Source: Mammaliicoccus sp. Dog046 (lineage in GTDB: Bacteria > Bacillota > Bacilli > Staphylococcales > Staphylococcaceae). From it: a DNA stretch of 64,000 nucleotides. The stretch lies in NCBI RefSeq assembly GCF_034039665.1, contig NZ_CP120131.1, positions 1,784,446-1,848,445 of the forward strand, given 5' to 3'. Under the pieces are notes generated by a model, which searched no databases, was not told the DNA's origin, and saw nothing but the letters and a program-made list of their open reading frames with translations. This document shows positions 28,934 to 38,289 of this stretch, piece by piece. Each line of letters starts with the position of its first letter. Within the stretch, counting starts at the first letter, position 1. Position numbers and translations under genes: made by a program.

Positions 28934-29266
28934 CTAACGAGATAGTTCTGGGAAACAATCCTGTTAGAAATTCTAACGAGATAGAAAGTGGAAACAATCT
29001 CGTTAGCGGTTCAATTTGCGATTTTAGTGTGTAAAAAACGACAAAATACATCCAAATAGCGCTCTAACGAGATAGTTCTGGGAAACAATCCTGTTAGATA
29101 TTCTAACGAGATAGAAAGTAAAAACAATCTCGTTAACGGTTCAATTTGCGATTTTCGTGTGTAAAAAACAAAAAAATACATCCAAATAGCGCTCTAACGT
29201 GATAGTTCTAGGAAACAATCCTGTTAGATATTCTAACGAGATAGAAAGTAAAAACAATCTCGTTAG
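28934..29266. repeat. 130-bp tandem repeat of paired palindromes
   Basis: Units begin at 28934, 29064 and 29194 (the last partial), exactly 130 bp apart. Each has two hairpins with CTAACGAGAT on the left and AATCYYGTTAG-type right arms, then GGTTCAATTTGCGATTTT and ACATCCAAATAGCGCT. The same palindrome occurs alone at 7157-7192. There are no ORFs of substance and it appears noncoding. Before it, 28873-28933 holds a GC-rich CCGCGGGCACCGCGGG hairpin. Confidence 0.8.
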
Positions 29267-29273
29267 CCATGCT

Positions 29274-29790
29274 CAATGTTGCATGTCGACCTCCACTTGC
29301 AATGTTCAACGCTCCAATGTTGCATGTCGACCTCCACTTGCAATGTTCAACGCTCCAATGTTGCTTGTCGACCTCCACTTGCAATATTCAGAGCCTCAAT
29401 GTTGCATGTCGACCTCCACTTGCAATGTTCAGCGCCTCAATGTTGCATGTCGACCTCCACTTGCAATGTTCAACGCTCCAATGTTGCATGTCGACCTCCA
29501 CTTGCAATGTTCAACGCTCCAATGTTGCTTGTCGACCTCCACTTGCAATATTCAGAGCCTCAATGTTGCATGTCGACCTCCACTTGCAATGTTCAACGCT
29601 CCAATGTTGCTTGTCAGCCTTCACTTGCAATGTTCAGCGTCCCAATGTTGCTTGTCATCCTCCACTTGCAATATTCAACGCTTCAATGTTGCTTGTCGAC
29701 CTCCACTTGCAATATTCAACGCTCCAATGTTGCTTGTCAGCCTCCACTTGCAATATTCAGCGCTCCAATGTTGCTTGTCGAAAGTTAAAA
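29274..29790. repeat. 41-bp tandem array, 12 copies plus a partial
   Basis: Units start at 29274 and every 41 bases to 29766. Each contains CAATGTTGC, then TGTCGACCTCCACTTGCAAT, then a TTCARMGC end. Variants alternate (GCATGTCGAC or GCTTGTCGAC; CAATGTTCAACG or CAATATTCAGAG), suggesting multi-unit duplication. Because 41 is not a multiple of three and the unit has few stops, all three forward frames stay open, creating spurious overlapping ORFs of 170-216 codons. No ribosome site or bias supports coding. Confidence 0.9.
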
Positions 29791-29951
29791 GAGGCTGGGA
29801 CATAATATATGTCTCAGCCTCTTTGAGTACCTTGGCAGTAGATGACTGAGTTGAAAATGCGCTTGTATCAATCTTTTTTCAACTCTAGTCATCTTTGCCG
29901 GGGCGGGACTACGAAATCTTTTTTTATAAATTAGATTTCTGTCCCGCTCCC
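29791..29951 (-). repeat. ~160-bp GGGAGCGGGACAG element, right arm of the inverted pair
   Basis: Reverse complement of 28705-28872 with small differences. It has its own hairpin GAGGCTGGGACATAA/GTCTCAGCCTC at the left end and the GGGCGGGACTACGAAATCT hairpin at the right. It ends two bases before the stop of the leftward tarX-like gene and so may terminate it. Confidence 0.8.
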
Positions 29952-29953
29952 TT

Positions 29954-31006
29954 TTAATGTGATATTTTTTTACTTTTATTTCTAACACTTCGTAAGTTCA
30001 TTTTAGTTATAAGTTTGATTCGTTTCATTTTATAATGTCTAAATGTTTTCTTATCTGTATTTTCATTTATTTGTGTTGCTACTTGAACATATGATTGATA
30101 ATTTTTTGTTGTAGCTATCGTCAATATTAATGATTTTAATTCTTTCACATGTTTAGTGTCTATATGCTCGATAACCTCAAAATATGATATTGCTGCATTT
30201 AATAATTGGTCAATATCTTCGACTTTCATAAAATTATTACGAATTAGGAAGTAAATGATTAAATAGTCCATTCTATAGCTATAATAATTTCCTACTTTTT
30301 CTTTTAATTCGTTTAAAATTATTAATGACTGTTTTCTCACTTCTGTTGCATCGTTCAAATATTTTTCAATGTTTTTATAACTCGTAGCAATGATGGAGTC
30401 TTCAACACCAATATTATAAAGATACGATACGTGATCAATAACTGTGATTTTACTTTTCGCCCAAGCTTTTAAATTAAATGTATGTTCTTCACAGAATGTA
30501 ATGCCTTCATCAAATTTAATATCTGATAATATTTCACGTTTATATAATTTACCGTATGGACCAATGGATTGAATGACTTCAGGTGTACGATTTAACGTCG
30601 TTCTTTCAACTGGTTTCAAATCATTATATGTTTGAATTGTTCTAACTTCGTCGCCAATTAAATGTGCTACTTTACCAACGACTATATCAGTATTATGTAA
30701 TTTAATCGTATCTACCATTTGATCAATGACATCTGCACCAAGTTTATCATCTGCATCACAGAACATGATATACTTTCCTTTAGCGATACGTATGCCTTCA
30801 TTTCGTGTTGCTGCGGCACCTTGGTTTTCATTATTAACTAATACGATATTTGGATTATCGATATTACTAATCACATCTGCACTGTTATCAGCAGACCCGT
30901 CATTGATACAAATGATTTCATGTGCATACTTACTCTTAATAGATTGTATCGTTTCTTCTATCGTCTTCTCCGCATTATAAACCGGTATAATAACACTAAC
31001 TTCCAT
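29954..31006 (-). CDS. tarX: GT2-family glycosyltransferase, TarX-like
   Basis: 350 residues. N-terminal GT-A/GT2 domain: MEVSVIIPVYNAEKTIEETI, ICINDGSADNSA, and the metal-binding region MFCDADDKLG near residue 90. A helical C-terminal part of about 150 residues follows, with a basic end. Order and strand after tagG-tarB match the staphylococcal tagG-tarB-tarX-tarD locus (from memory), hence the symbol. Its precise role in wall teichoic acid assembly is not established. The ATG overlaps the tarB stop (TAATG). Confidence 0.75.
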   Translation of the reverse strand: MEVSVIIPVYNAEKTIEETIQSIKSKYAHEIICINDGSADNSADVISNIDNPNIVLVNNENQGAAATRNEGIRIAKGKYIMFCDADDKLGADVIDQMVDTIKLHNTDIVVGKVAHLIGDEVRTIQTYNDLKPVERTTLNRTPEVIQSIGPYGKLYKREILSDIKFDEGITFCEEHTFNLKAWAKSKITVIDHVSYLYNIGVEDSIIATSYKNIEKYLNDATEVRKQSLIILNELKEKVGNYYSYRMDYLIIYFLIRNNFMKVEDIDQLLNAAISYFEVIEHIDTKHVKELKSLILTIATTKNYQSYVQVATQINENTDKKTFRHYKMKRIKLITKMNLRSVRNKSKKISH

Positions 31007-32082
31007 TAGTTATTCTCCTTTTTAATAAAATCAATTAGTTTTTCTGTTGCATTAAATGTCGTATATTGATGCCACATTGGCTTAATTTGATCATTCAATT
31101 CCGCTTCATTCACTAAGTTATATAAAGCATCTAAATTAAATGCTTTATTCACTTTCGTCATTTCATAATAATACGTATTTAAACCACGCATTTCATTATA
31201 TTTTTCTTCATCATAGCAATAAAATATTATAGGCTTATCTAATATTGACGCCTCTATACTTAACGAGCTATAGTCCGTTATAATCACATCTGCCATTTCA
31301 ACGAGTGTTTGTATATCTCTAGAATCAGATTCTGAATGATTAATACTTGGATGTAGCTTAGTAATTAAATTATATTCTGGGCAATTTTGTTCGAATGCTT
31401 TTTGATCAATTGTATGAATCTCATTCGTATAATCTCTGTACGTCGGTACATATAATGCGATTTTCTTACCTGTTTGATTAGATTGCGTATGTTCTGCGTA
31501 TTTATCTAAACGAGGTAACCCAATAGGCAATATTTGATCTTCTTTAGCATCTAAACTATCTATAAATATTTGTTTCATAATATCTGAACTTACTAAATAG
31601 TAATCCGTAAAATGATATACAGATAAATAATTATTAATGAGTTGTTCATTGGATTGATCAATACTATTATCTTCAAGACCAAATTTTTTCAAAGCACCTG
31701 CAGCATGCCATGTTTGAATAACAGTTTGATTATTGTGCTTACTGATACTCCCTAATAATAAATAATATGTATCAATTATGACTGTTTTACTTGTCTTAAT
31801 TGCTTTTAATTGTTGAAAGACATATTTATTTCTTAGATTAATTACACGATCAACGTTCAGCGATTTCGCGTATTCAATCCATTTTGGATGAGCAATAATC
31901 GTAATTTGAAATTTTTCTTTCTTTAAAGCTTCAATGATTGGGCTAATATCTTCTTTAAAAGTCATAAACACAACGACATGATTATCATTAATATTATGTT
32001 TGAAACATGTATCAAACACTTTAATTCCTGTTAGATACATTTGCTTAACTATATTTCTAATCACTTTGACACTTCCTAACAT
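31006..32082 (-). CDS. tarB: Teichoic acid glycerol-phosphate primase
   Basis: About 358 residues, Glyphos_transf family. Motifs are IQTWHAAGALKKFGLED (catalytic His near residue 140) and VIITDYSSLSIEASILDKP, then NEMRGLNTYYYEM. It adds the first glycerol phosphate to ManNAc-GlcNAc-PP-undecaprenol on the cytoplasmic membrane face. A longer frame starts at 32115, but its first codons lie in the terminator hairpin of tagG, so I prefer the ATG at 32082. The ribosome site is weak and the exact start is uncertain. Confidence 0.85.
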   Translation of the reverse strand: MLGSVKVIRNIVKQMYLTGIKVFDTCFKHNINDNHVVVFMTFKEDISPIIEALKKEKFQITIIAHPKWIEYAKSLNVDRVINLRNKYVFQQLKAIKTSKTVIIDTYYLLLGSISKHNNQTVIQTWHAAGALKKFGLEDNSIDQSNEQLINNYLSVYHFTDYYLVSSDIMKQIFIDSLDAKEDQILPIGLPRLDKYAEHTQSNQTGKKIALYVPTYRDYTNEIHTIDQKAFEQNCPEYNLITKLHPSINHSESDSRDIQTLVEMADVIITDYSSLSIEASILDKPIIFYCYDEEKYNEMRGLNTYYYEMTKVNKAFNLDALYNLVNEAELNDQIKPMWHQYTTFNATEKLIDFIKKENN

Positions 32083-32102
32083 TCTCTTAATCTTTATAAA
32101 AT

Positions 32103-32132
32103 AAGGCTGGGACATAAATGCCTCAGCCTCTT
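32103..32132 (-). terminator. tagG terminator
   Basis: AAGAGGCTGA and TCCCAGCCTT arms read leftward, followed by ATTTTA. It separates tagG from tarB, so read-through or a hidden promoter must supply tarB. Confidence 0.6.
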
Positions 32133-32146
32133 TAGTTATTTAAATT

Positions 32147-32950
32147 TTAAATGAAATCAGCAAATCTTTGTCTGAATTTAACATGTAGAATTGAACCTAC
32201 TACAAAGAATAATAACGTCACGCAAACATTATATAATGCTAATTGCCAATGATCTATGATATACCAATTATTATATAAAATTGCAGCTCTATATCCTTCT
32301 GCAAAGAAGAAGACTGGATTTAATTTCATAATCATTTCTACAACAGATCCCTTGTCTGGAATCCATAAGATTGGTGATAAATAGAATAACATTCTTAACA
32401 ATGCTTGCATCGCCATTTGCGTATCTCGAATGAGCACGCCAAGTGTTGATGTTAATAATGAAACTGAAAATGCAAATATATAAACGAACGGCATTAATAT
32501 GATTAATTGTATAACATAAATTGATGGTACGATACCTGATGCCATACATATAAGCATAATCACGATCACTAATATAATATGGCCATAAAATCTACTTGTT
32601 AAAATATAAGCTGGTATTGCGGACAACGGGAAGTTCATCTTGGCTACTTGATTAAATCTTGAACCAATCGATTTCGTTCCTTCAAGTACACCTTGGTTCA
32701 CAAAGAACCACATACTAATTCCGACTAACAAATATAAAATAAATGGTACGCCATCTATTGGAGCATTTTGTCTAATACCAAATCCAAAGGCAAACCAATA
32801 TACAAAGATTTGTAAAATAGGATTAATAAGTTCCCACGCTAGCCCAAGATAATTATCATGGTTAGATATTTTCAACTGGAACTGTGCCAACCTTTGTATT
32901 AAATAAAAGTTTTTTAAGTGCTCTTTAATCACTGTAAATACAGCATGCAT
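32147..32950 (-). CDS. tagG: Wall teichoic acid exporter permease
   Basis: 267 residues, ABC-2 permease with about six membrane helices and the family phrase NHDNYLGLAWELINPILQI. It exports lipid-linked teichoic acid with TagH, encoded divergently at 33.2 kb. The ATG at 32950 gives a protein of usual length (about 270) and has GAGAGTG upstream; the longer frame to 32986 adds a non-conserved polar extension. The neighbours tarB and tarX make the exported polymer. It is distinct from the second permease at 14.0 kb. Confidence 0.93.
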   Translation of the reverse strand: MHAVFTVIKEHLKNFYLIQRLAQFQLKISNHDNYLGLAWELINPILQIFVYWFAFGFGIRQNAPIDGVPFILYLLVGISMWFFVNQGVLEGTKSIGSRFNQVAKMNFPLSAIPAYILTSRFYGHIILVIVIMLICMASGIVPSIYVIQLIILMPFVYIFAFSVSLLTSTLGVLIRDTQMAMQALLRMLFYLSPILWIPDKGSVVEMIMKLNPVFFFAEGYRAAILYNNWYIIDHWQLALYNVCVTLLFFVVGSILHVKFRQRFADFI

Positions 32951-33115
32951 GAATATCACTCTCTCGCTTCGACATTTATTACTCATTCAATAATATAGCA
33001 TCATTTCACATAAGATGATATATTTATCTTTAGGTAAATCTGATAATTATAGAACATATTTAATTTACATGATTCCAACAAAATTTACAATAAATTTACT
33101 AAACTCTCAAAATAA

Positions 33116-33952
<837 letters not shown>

Positions 33953-33958
33953 TTATTA

Positions 33959-33996
33959 AAAAGCGTAGTGATGAAATATCATCACTACGCTTTTTT
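33959..33996. terminator. Bidirectional terminator between tagH and the vra operon
   Basis: AAGCGTAGTGATGA (33961-33974) pairs perfectly with TCATCACTACGCTT (33979-33992). T runs lie on both sides as read from either strand. Confidence 0.9.
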
Positions 33997-34248
33997 GATT
34001 GTTATTTTAAGTTCCCCATATTCATTTACACATTTAATGTGATCTTTTTGTATATCCTTAAACAGTTTTTCTCCCATATAAATAGATTTTTTATATTGAA
34101 TTGTATACGATGGCCATTCGATTCCTAATAACAACCATTCACATACAAGTTGACCTGGTACTACCTCATCGTGTACAGGATTTTGATCATTGATTAAGTT
34201 CAAATAGTTATGTACATATTCGCTATTAAATATCATTTCATCACTCAC
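33985..34248 (-). CDS. Small MaoC-like hot-dog hydratase subunit
   Basis: 87 residues. The phrase NLINDQNPVHDEVVPGQLV holds the D-x-N-P-[LIV]-H catalytic pattern of MaoC/(R)-specific enoyl-CoA hydratases, followed by the usual PG turn. The protein is half the length of a stand-alone hydratase. The GTG start at 34248 overlaps the vraC stop (GTGA), so the two are translationally coupled; ATG at 34236 is an alternative. It matches in position the small gene after vraC in S. aureus (from memory). It probably pairs with VraC to form one hydratase; that is inference. Confidence 0.65.
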   Translation of the reverse strand: MSDEMIFNSEYVHNYLNLINDQNPVHDEVVPGQLVCEWLLLGIEWPSYTIQYKKSIYMGEKLFKDIQKDHIKCVNEYGELKITIKKA

Positions 34249-34601
34249 TGTTCTATAAATATTTGTTTTATTTCAATATATTGTTCACCTTCTTTTGAAA
34301 TTGTTAAAGTAAATTGATGTACTCGAAATTGTTTAATTTGTTTCGTGTAGTTATGTATTAAAGTAGCTTTATATTTTGTATCTATTTTGAGCTTTTTAAT
34401 GCGACGAATATTTGATTCTTTTAACAATACTTTACGGTGAATAAATGGTTTAAATAATTCGAATGATGGCCATACTTTAGCAATATAAAGATCAGGAACG
34501 TCATCTGTATTTAAATTTAGCAATGTTTTATATGCTTGTATTTCTTTTTTCGTAAATTCAATGTGCTTTGTCTCTATGCCATCTTCTAAAGAGTGCTGCA
34601 T
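34245..34601 (-). CDS. vraC: VraC-like protein, probable non-catalytic hot-dog partner
   Basis: 118 residues, similar in length and operon position to S. aureus VraC, a protein of unknown role in the vancomycin-responsive vra operon. It contains TKKEIQAYKTLLNL and VWPSFELFKPFI, reminiscent of the N-terminal hot-dog half of MaoC-like dehydratases, and a beta-rich end. It has no D-x4-H catalytic pair. The ATG at 34601 has GGAGGTGG eight bases upstream; GTG at 34613 is possible. It overlaps vraB by 44 bases and the next gene by 4, a tight operon. Confidence 0.6.
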   Translation of the reverse strand: MQHSLEDGIETKHIEFTKKEIQAYKTLLNLNTDDVPDLYIAKVWPSFELFKPFIHRKVLLKESNIRRIKKLKIDTKYKATLIHNYTKQIKQFRVHQFTLTISKEGEQYIEIKQIFIEQ

Positions 34602-35712
34602 GTCCCATTCCACCTCCGATTCCCATAGTTACGATTCCATTGTTTATCTCTTCCATATGAAATAGTCGTGTCACGAGCTGTGCACCACTTGCACCATATG
34701 GATGACCGATAGCTATTGCACCACCATATTTATTAAATTTCTCATCTGGCATATTTAATTGTTTCTTACTAGCGAGAACTTGTGAACTAAATGCTTCATT
34801 AAATTCAATCGCATCTATATCTTCAATCGTCATTTTATTTTTGTTTAATAATTGTGAAACAGCTGGCACTGGTCCTACACCCAATATATTAGGGTCTACA
34901 CCTTTTACGACACTATCAACAAATGTTATTCCTGTTTGATACCCTAAAGAAATCGCCTTTTCTTTACTCATAACGAGTAGTAAAACTGCACCATCATTTT
35001 TCATACAGCTATTGCCTACAGTTACAGTACCCTCCTTTATAAGTGGTTTAAACCGAGATAAAGTATTTAAATTTAATCTTGGTTTTACACTTTCATCGTT
35101 GCTAATCCATTCATTTCTCACTTTAATAGGCAATATTTCGCGTGATAAAAATCCATTATTTAATGCATTGAAGGTCTTTTGGTGACTAAAATATGCATAT
35201 TCATCTTGTTCTTCTCTTGTAACATGGTAAACTTGAGCGACATTTTCAGCCGCTTCTATCATGGACGGATCTTCCCCTTCAGGCGCAAATGGTGCTCTTT
35301 CGAAGAACTCAGGTGTATCTGAGGGATATAATGATTGTGGTCGTTTCATCTTCCACGGTGCACGACTCGTACTTTCTACGCCACCTGCGATATAAACATC
35401 TCCAGCTCCTGCTTGAACCATTCTACATGCATATGTAACTGCTTCTAATCCTGAACCACATTGTCTATCAATGGTTACTCCTGGTATTGACTGAGGTAAT
35501 GATGCTTCTAGTAATGATTTTCTAGCTATGTTACCTCCATTGCCAATAACATTGCCTAACACAACCTCTTGCATATTCTGTAGTGCATCTGTATGTTCTT
35601 CTTTAAAATATTCAAATAGTGGTTTTAATAACATCTCAGGTTCCAAATGTTTAAACACACCTCCATATTTTCCAAAAGCTGTTCTTTTAGCTGCTACAAT
35701 AATTGCTTCCAT
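34558..35712 (-). CDS. vraB: Acetyl-CoA C-acyltransferase (thiolase), VraB-like
   Basis: 384 residues, thiolase family. The nucleophilic cysteine is in TIDRQCGSGLEAVTYA (near residue 85), the catalytic His in IEFNEAFSSQ and GGAIAIGHPYGASGAQ (near 340), and the final Gly-rich TMGIGGGMGHAALF. The usual second active cysteine of the CxG motif is replaced: the end reads GGGMGHA where CIGGGMG is common, so the general acid Cys seems absent. It overlaps vraA. GGAGG is 6 bases before the ATG. Role: fatty acyl-CoA cleavage or condensation with VraA. Confidence 0.88.
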   Translation of the reverse strand: MEAIIVAAKRTAFGKYGGVFKHLEPEMLLKPLFEYFKEEHTDALQNMQEVVLGNVIGNGGNIARKSLLEASLPQSIPGVTIDRQCGSGLEAVTYACRMVQAGAGDVYIAGGVESTSRAPWKMKRPQSLYPSDTPEFFERAPFAPEGEDPSMIEAAENVAQVYHVTREEQDEYAYFSHQKTFNALNNGFLSREILPIKVRNEWISNDESVKPRLNLNTLSRFKPLIKEGTVTVGNSCMKNDGAVLLLVMSKEKAISLGYQTGITFVDSVVKGVDPNILGVGPVPAVSQLLNKNKMTIEDIDAIEFNEAFSSQVLASKKQLNMPDEKFNKYGGAIAIGHPYGASGAQLVTRLFHMEEINNGIVTMGIGGGMGHAALFRRWHRDKAH

Positions 35713-37067
35713 TCTTTACCTCCATTCTGATACGCACACTTCATTTTGTATCTTGAAATTTTACCGCTTTCTGTATAGTTCATTTTTCTAACACGCGTTA
35801 ATTTAGAAGGTATTTCATATCGACTTAATCCTTTACTCAACAACAACTTTCTTAAATCTTTATATTTGATTTCGACATCCCCTCTATAGATTAATACAGC
35901 GATTTCTCCAAATTGATGATGATCTTCACCAATAACAATCGCTTCGAACACGTCATCAATACTAAGTACAGATTGTTCGATGACTTCTGGGTAAATATTT
36001 TTACCGCCGATAATTAAACGCTCACTATCTCTACCATATAAACGCAATTCTTGTTGTTCATTAATCGATGCCCAGTCACCTACTTCTATCCATGAATGAT
36101 CATTGTCGCTATTTAAATATCCACTAAAAATCATGTCACTACTCACAAACAATTTCCCAATTTGATCAGTACCTTTATTTTCTAGCTTTATTTTCACACT
36201 TGGAAATAAATATCCAACTGTATCTATAGGTGCTTTACCATTTAAGTTATAACTAATAAAACTCGCTTCTGAACTTCCAAAGAATTCAATGATGTCTATG
36301 AGTGGATATTTCGTTTTTAATTTTTCAAATATTGCCCTAGGTAACTTCGCACCTGATGAGTACATACTGGATAAATTCTTTAAATTTACACCTTCATTTA
36401 ATATGCTATAAATCATTGTAGGTACAACAAACAATGTTTTATTTTGCTCTAAACGATTCAACTCTTGAACTAACTTTTGAGCATTAAAAGAATATTGGCC
36501 ATAAAAACATTTTCCTCGGCATAACGCATAAATCATCACATAAAGAGATAAAGAGTGTGAATGCGGTCCAGGAGCAGCATATACTTTAATGTTTTCGTTC
36601 ATAAATGCATCATTATATTGAAAAGACTTCATCCATGACATGTGACTACGTACATACGCTTTAGGCATACCTGTTGTTCCAGAAGTAAATCCTATATGTA
36701 AAGTATCGTGTGGCAATGATTGTACCTCCACCTTCTCCATTACTATGATTTGTTCAGTTTTATCAATGTAGATAGGAATGTGATTAATCGTTAGTACATC
36801 ACGGATATGATTATCTTCCCGAGATGCATCGATCACACATGGAATTTGATGATTGATTAATGCTCCGATATACCACTTTATAAACTGAATCGGATGCTTT
36901 ATCGCGATTCCAATTTTCGTTCCCTCATCATGACAGCTCAATTGCTCTGAACATTCATGACTTTTTTGCCATAACTCTTGATATGTTATCTCTTGTCCGT
37001 CAGCATAAACCGCAATTTCGGCTTTATTTTGTTCTACTTGTTGTTTGATTAAATCTAGAATTGTCAC
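35694..37067 (-). CDS. vraA: Acyl-CoA synthetase (AMP-forming), VraA-like
   Basis: 457 residues, ANL superfamily. ATP-binding P-loop-like HIGFTSGTTGMPKAYVRS (about 140-155), FFGSSEASF in the A5 position, YGRDSERLIIGGKNIYPEVI (A8 hinge) and the catalytic lysine near ESGKISRYKMK at the end. It activates a fatty or carboxylic acid to its CoA ester. GTG at 37067 follows GGAGGGG; the frame from 37091 has no such site. First gene of vraA-vraB-vraC plus a MaoC-like gene. In S. aureus the homologous operon responds to vancomycin (from memory). Confidence 0.85.
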   Translation of the reverse strand: MTILDLIKQQVEQNKAEIAVYADGQEITYQELWQKSHECSEQLSCHDEGTKIGIAIKHPIQFIKWYIGALINHQIPCVIDASREDNHIRDVLTINHIPIYIDKTEQIIVMEKVEVQSLPHDTLHIGFTSGTTGMPKAYVRSHMSWMKSFQYNDAFMNENIKVYAAPGPHSHSLSLYVMIYALCRGKCFYGQYSFNAQKLVQELNRLEQNKTLFVVPTMIYSILNEGVNLKNLSSMYSSGAKLPRAIFEKLKTKYPLIDIIEFFGSSEASFISYNLNGKAPIDTVGYLFPSVKIKLENKGTDQIGKLFVSSDMIFSGYLNSDNDHSWIEVGDWASINEQQELRLYGRDSERLIIGGKNIYPEVIEQSVLSIDDVFEAIVIGEDHHQFGEIAVLIYRGDVEIKYKDLRKLLLSKGLSRYEIPSKLTRVRKMNYTESGKISRYKMKCAYQNGGKEWKQLL

Positions 37068-37126
37068 AATGCCCCTCCAATCGTTAATCAAATTATATCA
37101 TTAGTTAACAATAGTCATAAAGAAAA

Positions 37127-37187
37127 GGGAGCGGGACAGAAATCTAATTTATAAAAAAGATTTCGTAGTCCCGCCCCGGCAAGGATG
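37127..37187 (+). repeat. Partial GGGAGCGGGACAG element
   Basis: About 60 bases nearly identical to the first part of 28705-28872 (GGGAGCGGGACAGAAATCTA through CCCGCCCCGGCAAGGATG). It lies between vraA (leftward start) and the tarA terminator, so the vraA promoter must be within or near it. Confidence 0.75.
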
Positions 37188-37197
37188 TCTATATACT

Positions 37198-37232
37198 AAA
37201 AAAGCTGAGACATTATTTCAGTCTCAGCTTTA
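37198..37232 (-). terminator. tarA terminator
   Basis: AAAGCTGAGA and TCTCAGCTTT arms around a 12-base loop. Read leftward, the stem is followed by TTTTAG. Confidence 0.8.
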
Positions 37233-37238
37233 TCTGTA

Positions 37239-38087
37239 TTATCTATTCTTCATATAGTCATATTTATTTTTCTTAGGTGTGATTGTTTTTTGAAATTGTA
37301 CTTCTTTCAAGAATAATGGAATTTTTAGTGCGCGATTCACACGTTGTAAATCAGTACCGATTCTATACAACCACTCAAGGTTCATTTTAATAAAGAATTT
37401 TGGAGCACGTTTCACATTTCCGCTTATTACATCAAAAGAACCACCCACACCCATTAATACAGTGTGTTTAAAGTGACTTCTATTGTAGTAAATCCAATCT
37501 TCTTGTTTAGGGAACCCCATAGCAACAAAGATAAAATCAGGTTCAAATTGTTTGATTTTTTTCGTTACTTTATAATCTAATACATGTTTATAACCATGCT
37601 TATGATCAAATGTAACGTTTGGATAATGTTCTTCTAAAATTTTACGTGTTTCCTTAACGCCTTCCTTAGATGAACCTAATAAGAATACACGCTTACTGCT
37701 TGCATTCGCAATATTAAGCATTTCTTCCATTAATTCTATACCAGGTACACGTTCTTTTAATGGTGTTTTTAAATATTTCGCTGCTTTAACAATACCTATT
37801 CCGTCAGGTACGATATAATCTGCATGTTTAATTCTTCTTTGATAATGATTGTTATGATATGCGTAATGTGCAATTTCAGGATTCGCTGTTACGATAAATA
37901 AATTATCCACAGTTTCCTGGTTTACAAAATATTTCACACGCTCAACCATTTCATTAGCCGTTAGGTTTGCAAATGGCAAACCTAGAACGTTAATTGTTTG
38001 TGGTTTAATTACATCATAGGAAGGTTCCTGACTTACTTTAATCTGTTCTCTTACTCTACTTAAATCTTTTTCTAGTACTTTTGCCAT
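37239..38087 (-). CDS. tarA: N-acetylglucosaminyldiphosphoundecaprenol ManNAc transferase
   Basis: 282 residues, WecG/TagA/CpsF family. Signature regions are TANPEIAHYAYHN, DYIVPDGIGIVKAAK (catalytic Asp region), VFLLGSSKEGV and FVAMGFPKQEDWI. It adds ManNAc to GlcNAc-PP-undecaprenol, the committed step of wall teichoic acid synthesis. The ATG at 38087 follows AGGTG by six bases; the alternative GTG at 38096 overlaps that site. Divergent from the LCP ligase gene, with about 200 bases between them. Confidence 0.92.
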   Translation of the reverse strand: MAKVLEKDLSRVREQIKVSQEPSYDVIKPQTINVLGLPFANLTANEMVERVKYFVNQETVDNLFIVTANPEIAHYAYHNNHYQRRIKHADYIVPDGIGIVKAAKYLKTPLKERVPGIELMEEMLNIANASSKRVFLLGSSKEGVKETRKILEEHYPNVTFDHKHGYKHVLDYKVTKKIKQFEPDFIFVAMGFPKQEDWIYYNRSHFKHTVLMGVGGSFDVISGNVKRAPKFFIKMNLEWLYRIGTDLQRVNRALKIPLFLKEVQFQKTITPKKNKYDYMKNR

Positions 38088-38289
38088 TTGTCTCACCTCT
38101 CTTATACTTCACTATAATTTACACCATTTCTATATAATTTACAACAAATTTACATTAGGACTTTAGACTGAGATACACATAATTCATTTAATTTGTTGAA
38201 TTTTACTTGTATAATCATATATGATGTATAATATGCAAAAAAGTAGAATTTAAAATCACAATACGATATAGAAGGGTAAATACAAAATT

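Follow-up and report, generated by a model that had tools for sequence, protein, structure and literature searches.

A probable split, HadAB-like hydratase encoded by vraC and vraP in a staphylococcal acyl-CoA operon with a BirA-type operator

VraC and VraP of the Staphylococcaceae very probably act together as a single heterodimeric enzyme, an (R)-specific enoyl-thioester hydratase or 3-hydroxyacyl-thioester dehydratase similar to HadAB and placed in a VraA-VraB acyl-CoA pathway with BirA-type control. This reading is built on homology, predicted folds, conservation, gene fusions, synteny and an operator sequence, from which we infer activity, substrate, direction and pathway. The locus lies in a stretch of 64,000 nucleotides from Mammaliicoccus sp. 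Dog046, the whole of which is referred to here as the window. An 87-codon open reading frame downstream of vraC had been singled out there as a possible half of a split hydratase, with VraC as the other half; this frame is VraP, already reported together with VraC. In S. aureus the two proteins are reported to alter the expression of cell-wall genes and the susceptibility to antibiotics that act on the cell wall, and VraCP is described as promoting cell-wall gene expression; the available summaries, which include those of Wang & Sun 2021, assign them no biochemical activity (PMC10620731, PMC11278659). We found no printed hydratase assignment for VraC or VraP in the open-access literature searched.

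The operon is carried on the reverse strand in the order vraA, vraB, vraC and the 87-codon frame, followed by a terminator candidate facing tagH (Table 1). The two frames of the original prediction are present as described, and position 34601 is an in-frame ATG inside the VraC frame. The four-base overlap claimed for them is seen with the GTG start of vraP, but homologues give that start no support: a Met aligns with window codon 5, corresponding to the ATG at 34236, in 41 of the 64 VraP homologues. This ATG is likely the true start; the product would then have 83 aa, with 8 bases separating its frame from the stop codon of vraC, and a gap of 8 bases is also present in M. sciuri and M. fleurettii. 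The vraP stop codon, as read from the sequence, falls within the stem of an inverted repeat between vraP and the convergent tagH, a probable bidirectional terminator common to both genes. As for the surroundings, vra lies among tagA, tagH and tagG in all six other Mammaliicoccus loci, as it does in the window (31006-38096), and thiD is near vra in 50 of the 61 remaining loci checked, with ung also near in 40 of those 50. Mammaliicoccus genome G005 carries a second and diverged VraC-like gene (L024:5784-6155), a few kb away from both thiD and ung, with no VraP detected.

Table 1. Features of the vra locus (positions in the window)
Feature	Position	Strand	Description
VraP (vraP)	33985..34248	-	87 codons, GTG start; compact predicted hot-dog half with D21-x-N23-P-V-H26 and P31-G32
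VraC	34245..34613	-	122 codons, GTG start; ATG alternative at 34601; predicted HadA-like hot-dog half without catalytic dyad
VraB	34558..35712	-	thiolase-fold enzyme; Cys85, Asn305, His337 present, Gly364 at second catalytic Cys position
VraA	35694..37067	-	acyl-CoA synthetase (AMP-binding); start GTG 37067 preceded by GGAGGGG site
BirA-type operator (predicted), TTGTTAAC-N15-ATTAACGA	37081..37111	-	immediately before vraA; TATAAT inside operator
Inverted repeat with A/T runs	33958..33996		between vraP and convergent tagH; read from sequence

Conservation was assessed in 67 loci, comprising the window and 66 fetched out of the 80 other genomes with a profile match. Named relatives are M. lentus, M. 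sciuri and M. fleurettii together with 26 Staphylococcus records, and the link to S. aureus is only through gene names and the gene order given in the literature. VraP frames were obtained from 65 of the 67 loci and, with the degenerate L059 dropped, 64 are intact; the broken L060 and L061 gave none. In the genomes concerned (G084, G085 and G079 for L059, L060 and L061) VraP looks decayed by stop codons. Residues D21, N23, H26, P31 and G32 are identical in all 64 intact frames, and P24 is conserved in 60, whereas most other positions vary; in a 41-row alignment of VraP homologues the lowest identity to the VraP of the window is 30%. The region concerned reads Y-L-N-L-I-N-D-Q-N-P-V-H-D-E-V-V-P-G in the window, and VraP holds the only occurrence of D-x-N-P-[LIV]-H in a six-frame translation of the window (mean in shuffled windows, 0.05). 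The Asp and His of the core hydratase-2 motif are 5 apart, as in VraP, and the full motif given in PMC4491049, [YF]-x(1,2)-[LIVG]-[STGC]-G-D-x-N-P-[LIV]-H-x(5)-[AS], differs from VraP at three positions. The MaoC hydratase signature first reported in the 87-residue protein stands as a core followed by PG, but VraP falls short of both the strict motif and Pfam.

The VraP of the window reaches no Pfam or NCBIfam model, including PF01575 at its gathering cut-off, and VraC gave only chance matches to these collections, none above cut-off. Searches of PDB sequences with staphylococcal VraC and VraP, using phmmer and profiles, yielded nothing usable. In the absence of a direct family match the link was made through relatives in other Bacilli, in which the matching operon was located with NF005212, a model for VraB-type thiolases. 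Thirty-two loci outside the family were fetched, and 28 of them contain a VraA-like ligase. Ten (L176, L178, L189, L191, L195, L196, L197, L200, L202 and L204) have, directly after the thiolase, a gene of the VraC-like type and then one for a MaoC protein, matching the vraC-vraP order. Pfam was applied to seven of the ten VraC-like proteins, all of which match PF13452 (FAS1_DH_region; five over the cut-off and two just under), and to six of the ten MaoC proteins, all of which are over the PF01575 cut-off. The operon pattern is therefore ligase-thiolase-PF13452-PF01575(-SDR), SDR being a short-chain dehydrogenase. When 3499 frames were searched with hidden Markov models built from the Bacilli genes only, staphylococcal VraP was matched with E values from 1.6e-8 and staphylococcal VraC with E values from 9e-6. 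In profile-profile alignments, each a single comparison, VraP matches the operon-linked MaoC proteins at 96% (E 4.7e-9) and MaoC proteins chosen outside the operon at 92% (E 6.5e-7), and VraC matches its Bacilli FAS1_DH-type counterpart at 95.7% (E 9.8e-9, 110 columns). A comparison of VraP with VraC gave 77% over 37 columns only and was set aside as evidence. At three further loci with VraA, VraB and SDR and no adjacent split pair (L177, L203 and L206), an opposite-strand frame some kb away matches both the VraC-like and the MaoC profiles and is perhaps a single-chain form.

AlphaFold2, with inputs of the window plus 28 and the window plus 29 rows of related loci, did not return the non-hot-dog folds named beforehand as contrary evidence: the models of VraP (pLDDT 94.7, pTM 0.84) and VraC (pLDDT 87.1, pTM 0.78, residues 1-10 disordered) are each one single hot-dog domain. 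The best matches of the VraP model are PhaJ (1iq6; Z 10.8, 1.8 A, 87 residues), human HTD2 (3ir3; 10.6), AF1124 and HadB chains (9.9-10.2). Residue 1 of the model pairs with residue 11 of the 1iq6 chain and, if the alignment is ungapped, D21 and H26 fall on residues 31 and 36, which we take to be the catalytic dyad of PhaJ. Ranks 1-9 for the VraC model are chains of HadAB, HadBC and HadBD entries (Z 12.2-12.7), taken as HadA, HadC or HadD from entry titles, numbering and the HadB and Rv0504c labels, the fold tables themselves naming no subunit. These chains are the non-catalytic ones, and D-x-N-P-x-H is absent from the VraC alignment and present in VraP, placing the dyad in one subunit only, in keeping with the comparison of VraC to a catalytically empty hot-dog half.

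Hot-dog thioesterases are also numerous in both structural lists, as expected were VraCP an acyl-CoA thioesterase of this superfamily rather than a hydratase, a reading we regard as very improbable. They rank after the hydratases and dehydratases, which hold the top places; D-x-N-P-x-H combined with an asymmetric pairing of catalytic and non-catalytic subunits belongs, in the account of PMC4491049, to hydratase 2 and HadAB; and the Bacilli counterparts score PF01575 MaoC far above 4HBT. Another possibility is a hot-dog pair without catalytic activity, VraCP serving as an acyl-CoA sensor or as a regulator or scaffold for cell-wall gene expression. It would fit the deletion phenotypes and the changes in expression described in the literature (summarised in PMC10620731 and PMC11278659), and the fold is indeed used by the regulator FapR, which is among the VraP matches (Z 8.4-8.8). 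We nonetheless consider it improbable, given the invariance of Asp, Asn, His and the PG pair among otherwise variable positions, the acyl-CoA enzymes of the operon and the full MaoC subunits at the same place in relatives. Nor do the VraC and VraP models include a DNA-binding domain joined to the hot-dog as in FapR, and no Pfam DNA-binding family is over the cut-off (TrmB, E 0.18, is under it).

The two genes are closely associated: of 65 loci, 63 have VraC beside VraP or fused to it, and the exceptions are one contig end and one degenerate locus. In three genomes the pair forms a single frame with the VraC part N-terminal (L055, 206 aa; L056, 228 aa; L184, 228 aa). One MAFFT alignment of the fusions and of stop-read-through chains placed the VraC rows over the VraP half and was set aside. 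Co-transcription of vraC and vraP and a possible stable VraC-VraP complex have been reported by others, as summarised in the literature. The fusions and the reported complex speak indirectly for a putative 1:1 double hot-dog. Adjacency, fusion and the reported complex make it extremely improbable that the two single-domain proteins act separately.

The predicted arrangement resembles that of HadAB, with two hot-dog subunits encoded by adjacent genes, and the dyad, the profile-profile matches, the predicted folds with their complementary matches, the fusions and the syntenic operons all argue for a split hydratase, as the original prediction proposed. The catalytic dyad (Asp21 and His26) would come from VraP, as would Gly32, where the central helix begins, and most of the acyl-chain pocket would come from VraC. 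Against this stand the lack of a Pfam or NCBIfam match, the departure from the strict motif, the published cell-wall role, a VraB without a second Cys and, in the alignment, the absence from VraP of about 12 residues found between the catalytic His and Gly of MaoC proteins.

HadAB, HadBC and HadBD, the mycobacterial (3R)-hydroxyacyl-ACP dehydratases, likewise consist of two hot-dog subunits with an Asp-x4-His dyad in only one. In HadAB the dyad is Asp36/His41 of HadB, 5 apart, and the acyl channel is in HadA (PMC4491049); D21 and H26 of VraP have the same spacing, Asn23 and Gly32 correspond by motif to Asn38 and Gly59 of HadB, and VraC, judged by its nine best matches, is the proposed counterpart of HadA. 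VraP differs in its length (83-87 aa versus about 142 for HadB), in the missing residues after the catalytic His and in having PG where HadB has HG; unlike the Had genes, vraC and vraP are in an acyl-CoA ligase/thiolase operon, and sequence identity to Had is about 8-17%. The (R)-specific enoyl-CoA hydratase PhaJ (1iq6, 5cpg) and human HTD2 (3ir3) share the fold of VraP and provide its best structural match, but are single MaoC subunits of 122-155 residues, whereas VraP is the shorter protein and is paired with a diverged subunit that has no dyad. The actinobacterial split MaoC hydratase ChsH1-ChsH2 is a split pair too, with chains among the matches of both models, but is less similar to VraC (Z 10.5-10.6) than HadAB is and belongs to a pathway different from the vra setting. 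If the proposal is correct, VraP would be an unusually small catalytic MaoC-type subunit, and could help to find out which parts of the fold catalysis needs.

The substrate of VraCP would be an acyl-CoA made by VraA, which family models identify as an AMP-binding acyl-CoA synthetase, beside the thiolase-fold VraB. The first, nucleophilic Cys of VraB (Cys85 in the window) is present in 63/63 Staphylococcaceae and 32/32 Bacilli copies, and VraB-type thiolases also retain His337 and Asn305. The position of the second thiolase Cys (CxGGG) is Gly in all 62 scorable Staphylococcaceae copies (one is gapped) and in the 28 Bacilli loci with VraA, and is Cys in the four Bacilli loci without VraA. VraB therefore does not have the classical thiolase Cys pair, and normal beta-oxidation or thiolysis is not to be assumed. 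A reductase, noted earlier as missing, adjoins the split pair as an SDR in five of the ten Bacilli operons (L176, L178, L200, L202 and L204), and the 3-oxo/3-hydroxy step would fall to a FabG-type SDR, whose gene would in staphylococci lie elsewhere. The fatty-acyl-CoA pathway first suggested for vra is supported in part, by the SDR of these five operons, but weakened by the missing Cys of VraB.

The palindrome before vraA (Table 1) conforms to an operator consensus that we take to be BirA-type. The pattern occurs at three places in the genome: before vraA, before bioY (PF02632) and within a sucrase-like gene, the last (L238:1501-1530) probably by chance. Immediately before VraA, 38 of 64 family loci (5/7 Mammaliicoccus including the window, and 33/57 others) reach an operator score of 13/16 or more, against 7 of 3599 control windows; three loci without VraA and the short L067 fell outside this sample. 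The other 26 of the 64 lack the operator, and none of the 28 Bacilli loci has it in the 90 bases upstream of VraA, so BirA-type control is not universal. In two g3 loci (L057 and L058) bioY is upstream in the same cluster. Where it is present, the predicted operator suggests that the vra operon is probably under BirA control and probably induced when biotin is short.

The yhfT-yhfS operon of S. aureus is repressed by BirA (PMC6391492, PMC7235819), as is that of B. subtilis; it encodes enzymes of the VraA and VraB types (with an NF005212 match in B. subtilis) and has a BirA-type operator, and the passages describing it mention neither a hydratase nor vraC or vraP. We infer that S. aureus yhfT-yhfS is vraA-vraB, and found no print source joining the two sets of names. 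If so, two literatures, one on vra and the cell wall and the other on yhfT-yhfS and BirA, would describe one operon. A role of vra in biotin synthesis through pimelate was considered and rejected. Of the 95 genomes with bioB, 70 have an intact VraP, as do 8 of the 13 without (Fisher P 0.34; the G089 fusion, L184, was missed by the VraP profile and counted as VraP-absent), and vra is therefore not simply a pimelate route.

Hydratase-like halves in an operon with a BirA-type operator imply that VraCP may act through lipid chemistry and not as regulators; the published 'regulator' phenotypes may then be metabolic, and a regulator reading is unneeded to explain them. A possible, though doubtful, scenario is that vra is a BirA-controlled acyl-chain module switched on at low biotin, in which VraA makes acyl-CoA, VraB (Cys-His-Asn) performs non-classical C-C chemistry closer to that of KAS III, and VraCP with a FabG-type SDR processes the beta-carbon, the module supplying or remodelling acyl chains when the biotin-dependent acetyl-CoA carboxylase is limiting. 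What has been read as regulation by VraCP, its effects on the cell wall and on antibiotic susceptibility, would then follow from changes in lipids. Were VraCP a HadAB-like hydratase encoded in an acyl-CoA operon under biotin control, the phenotype would become a testable question of lipid metabolism.

Among other features of the window, we note a repeat-rich segment at 29199-29849 in which three forward-strand frames are open (216, 178 and 170 aa) and a short Cys-rich peptide is repeated; it probably consists of non-coding tandem repeats.
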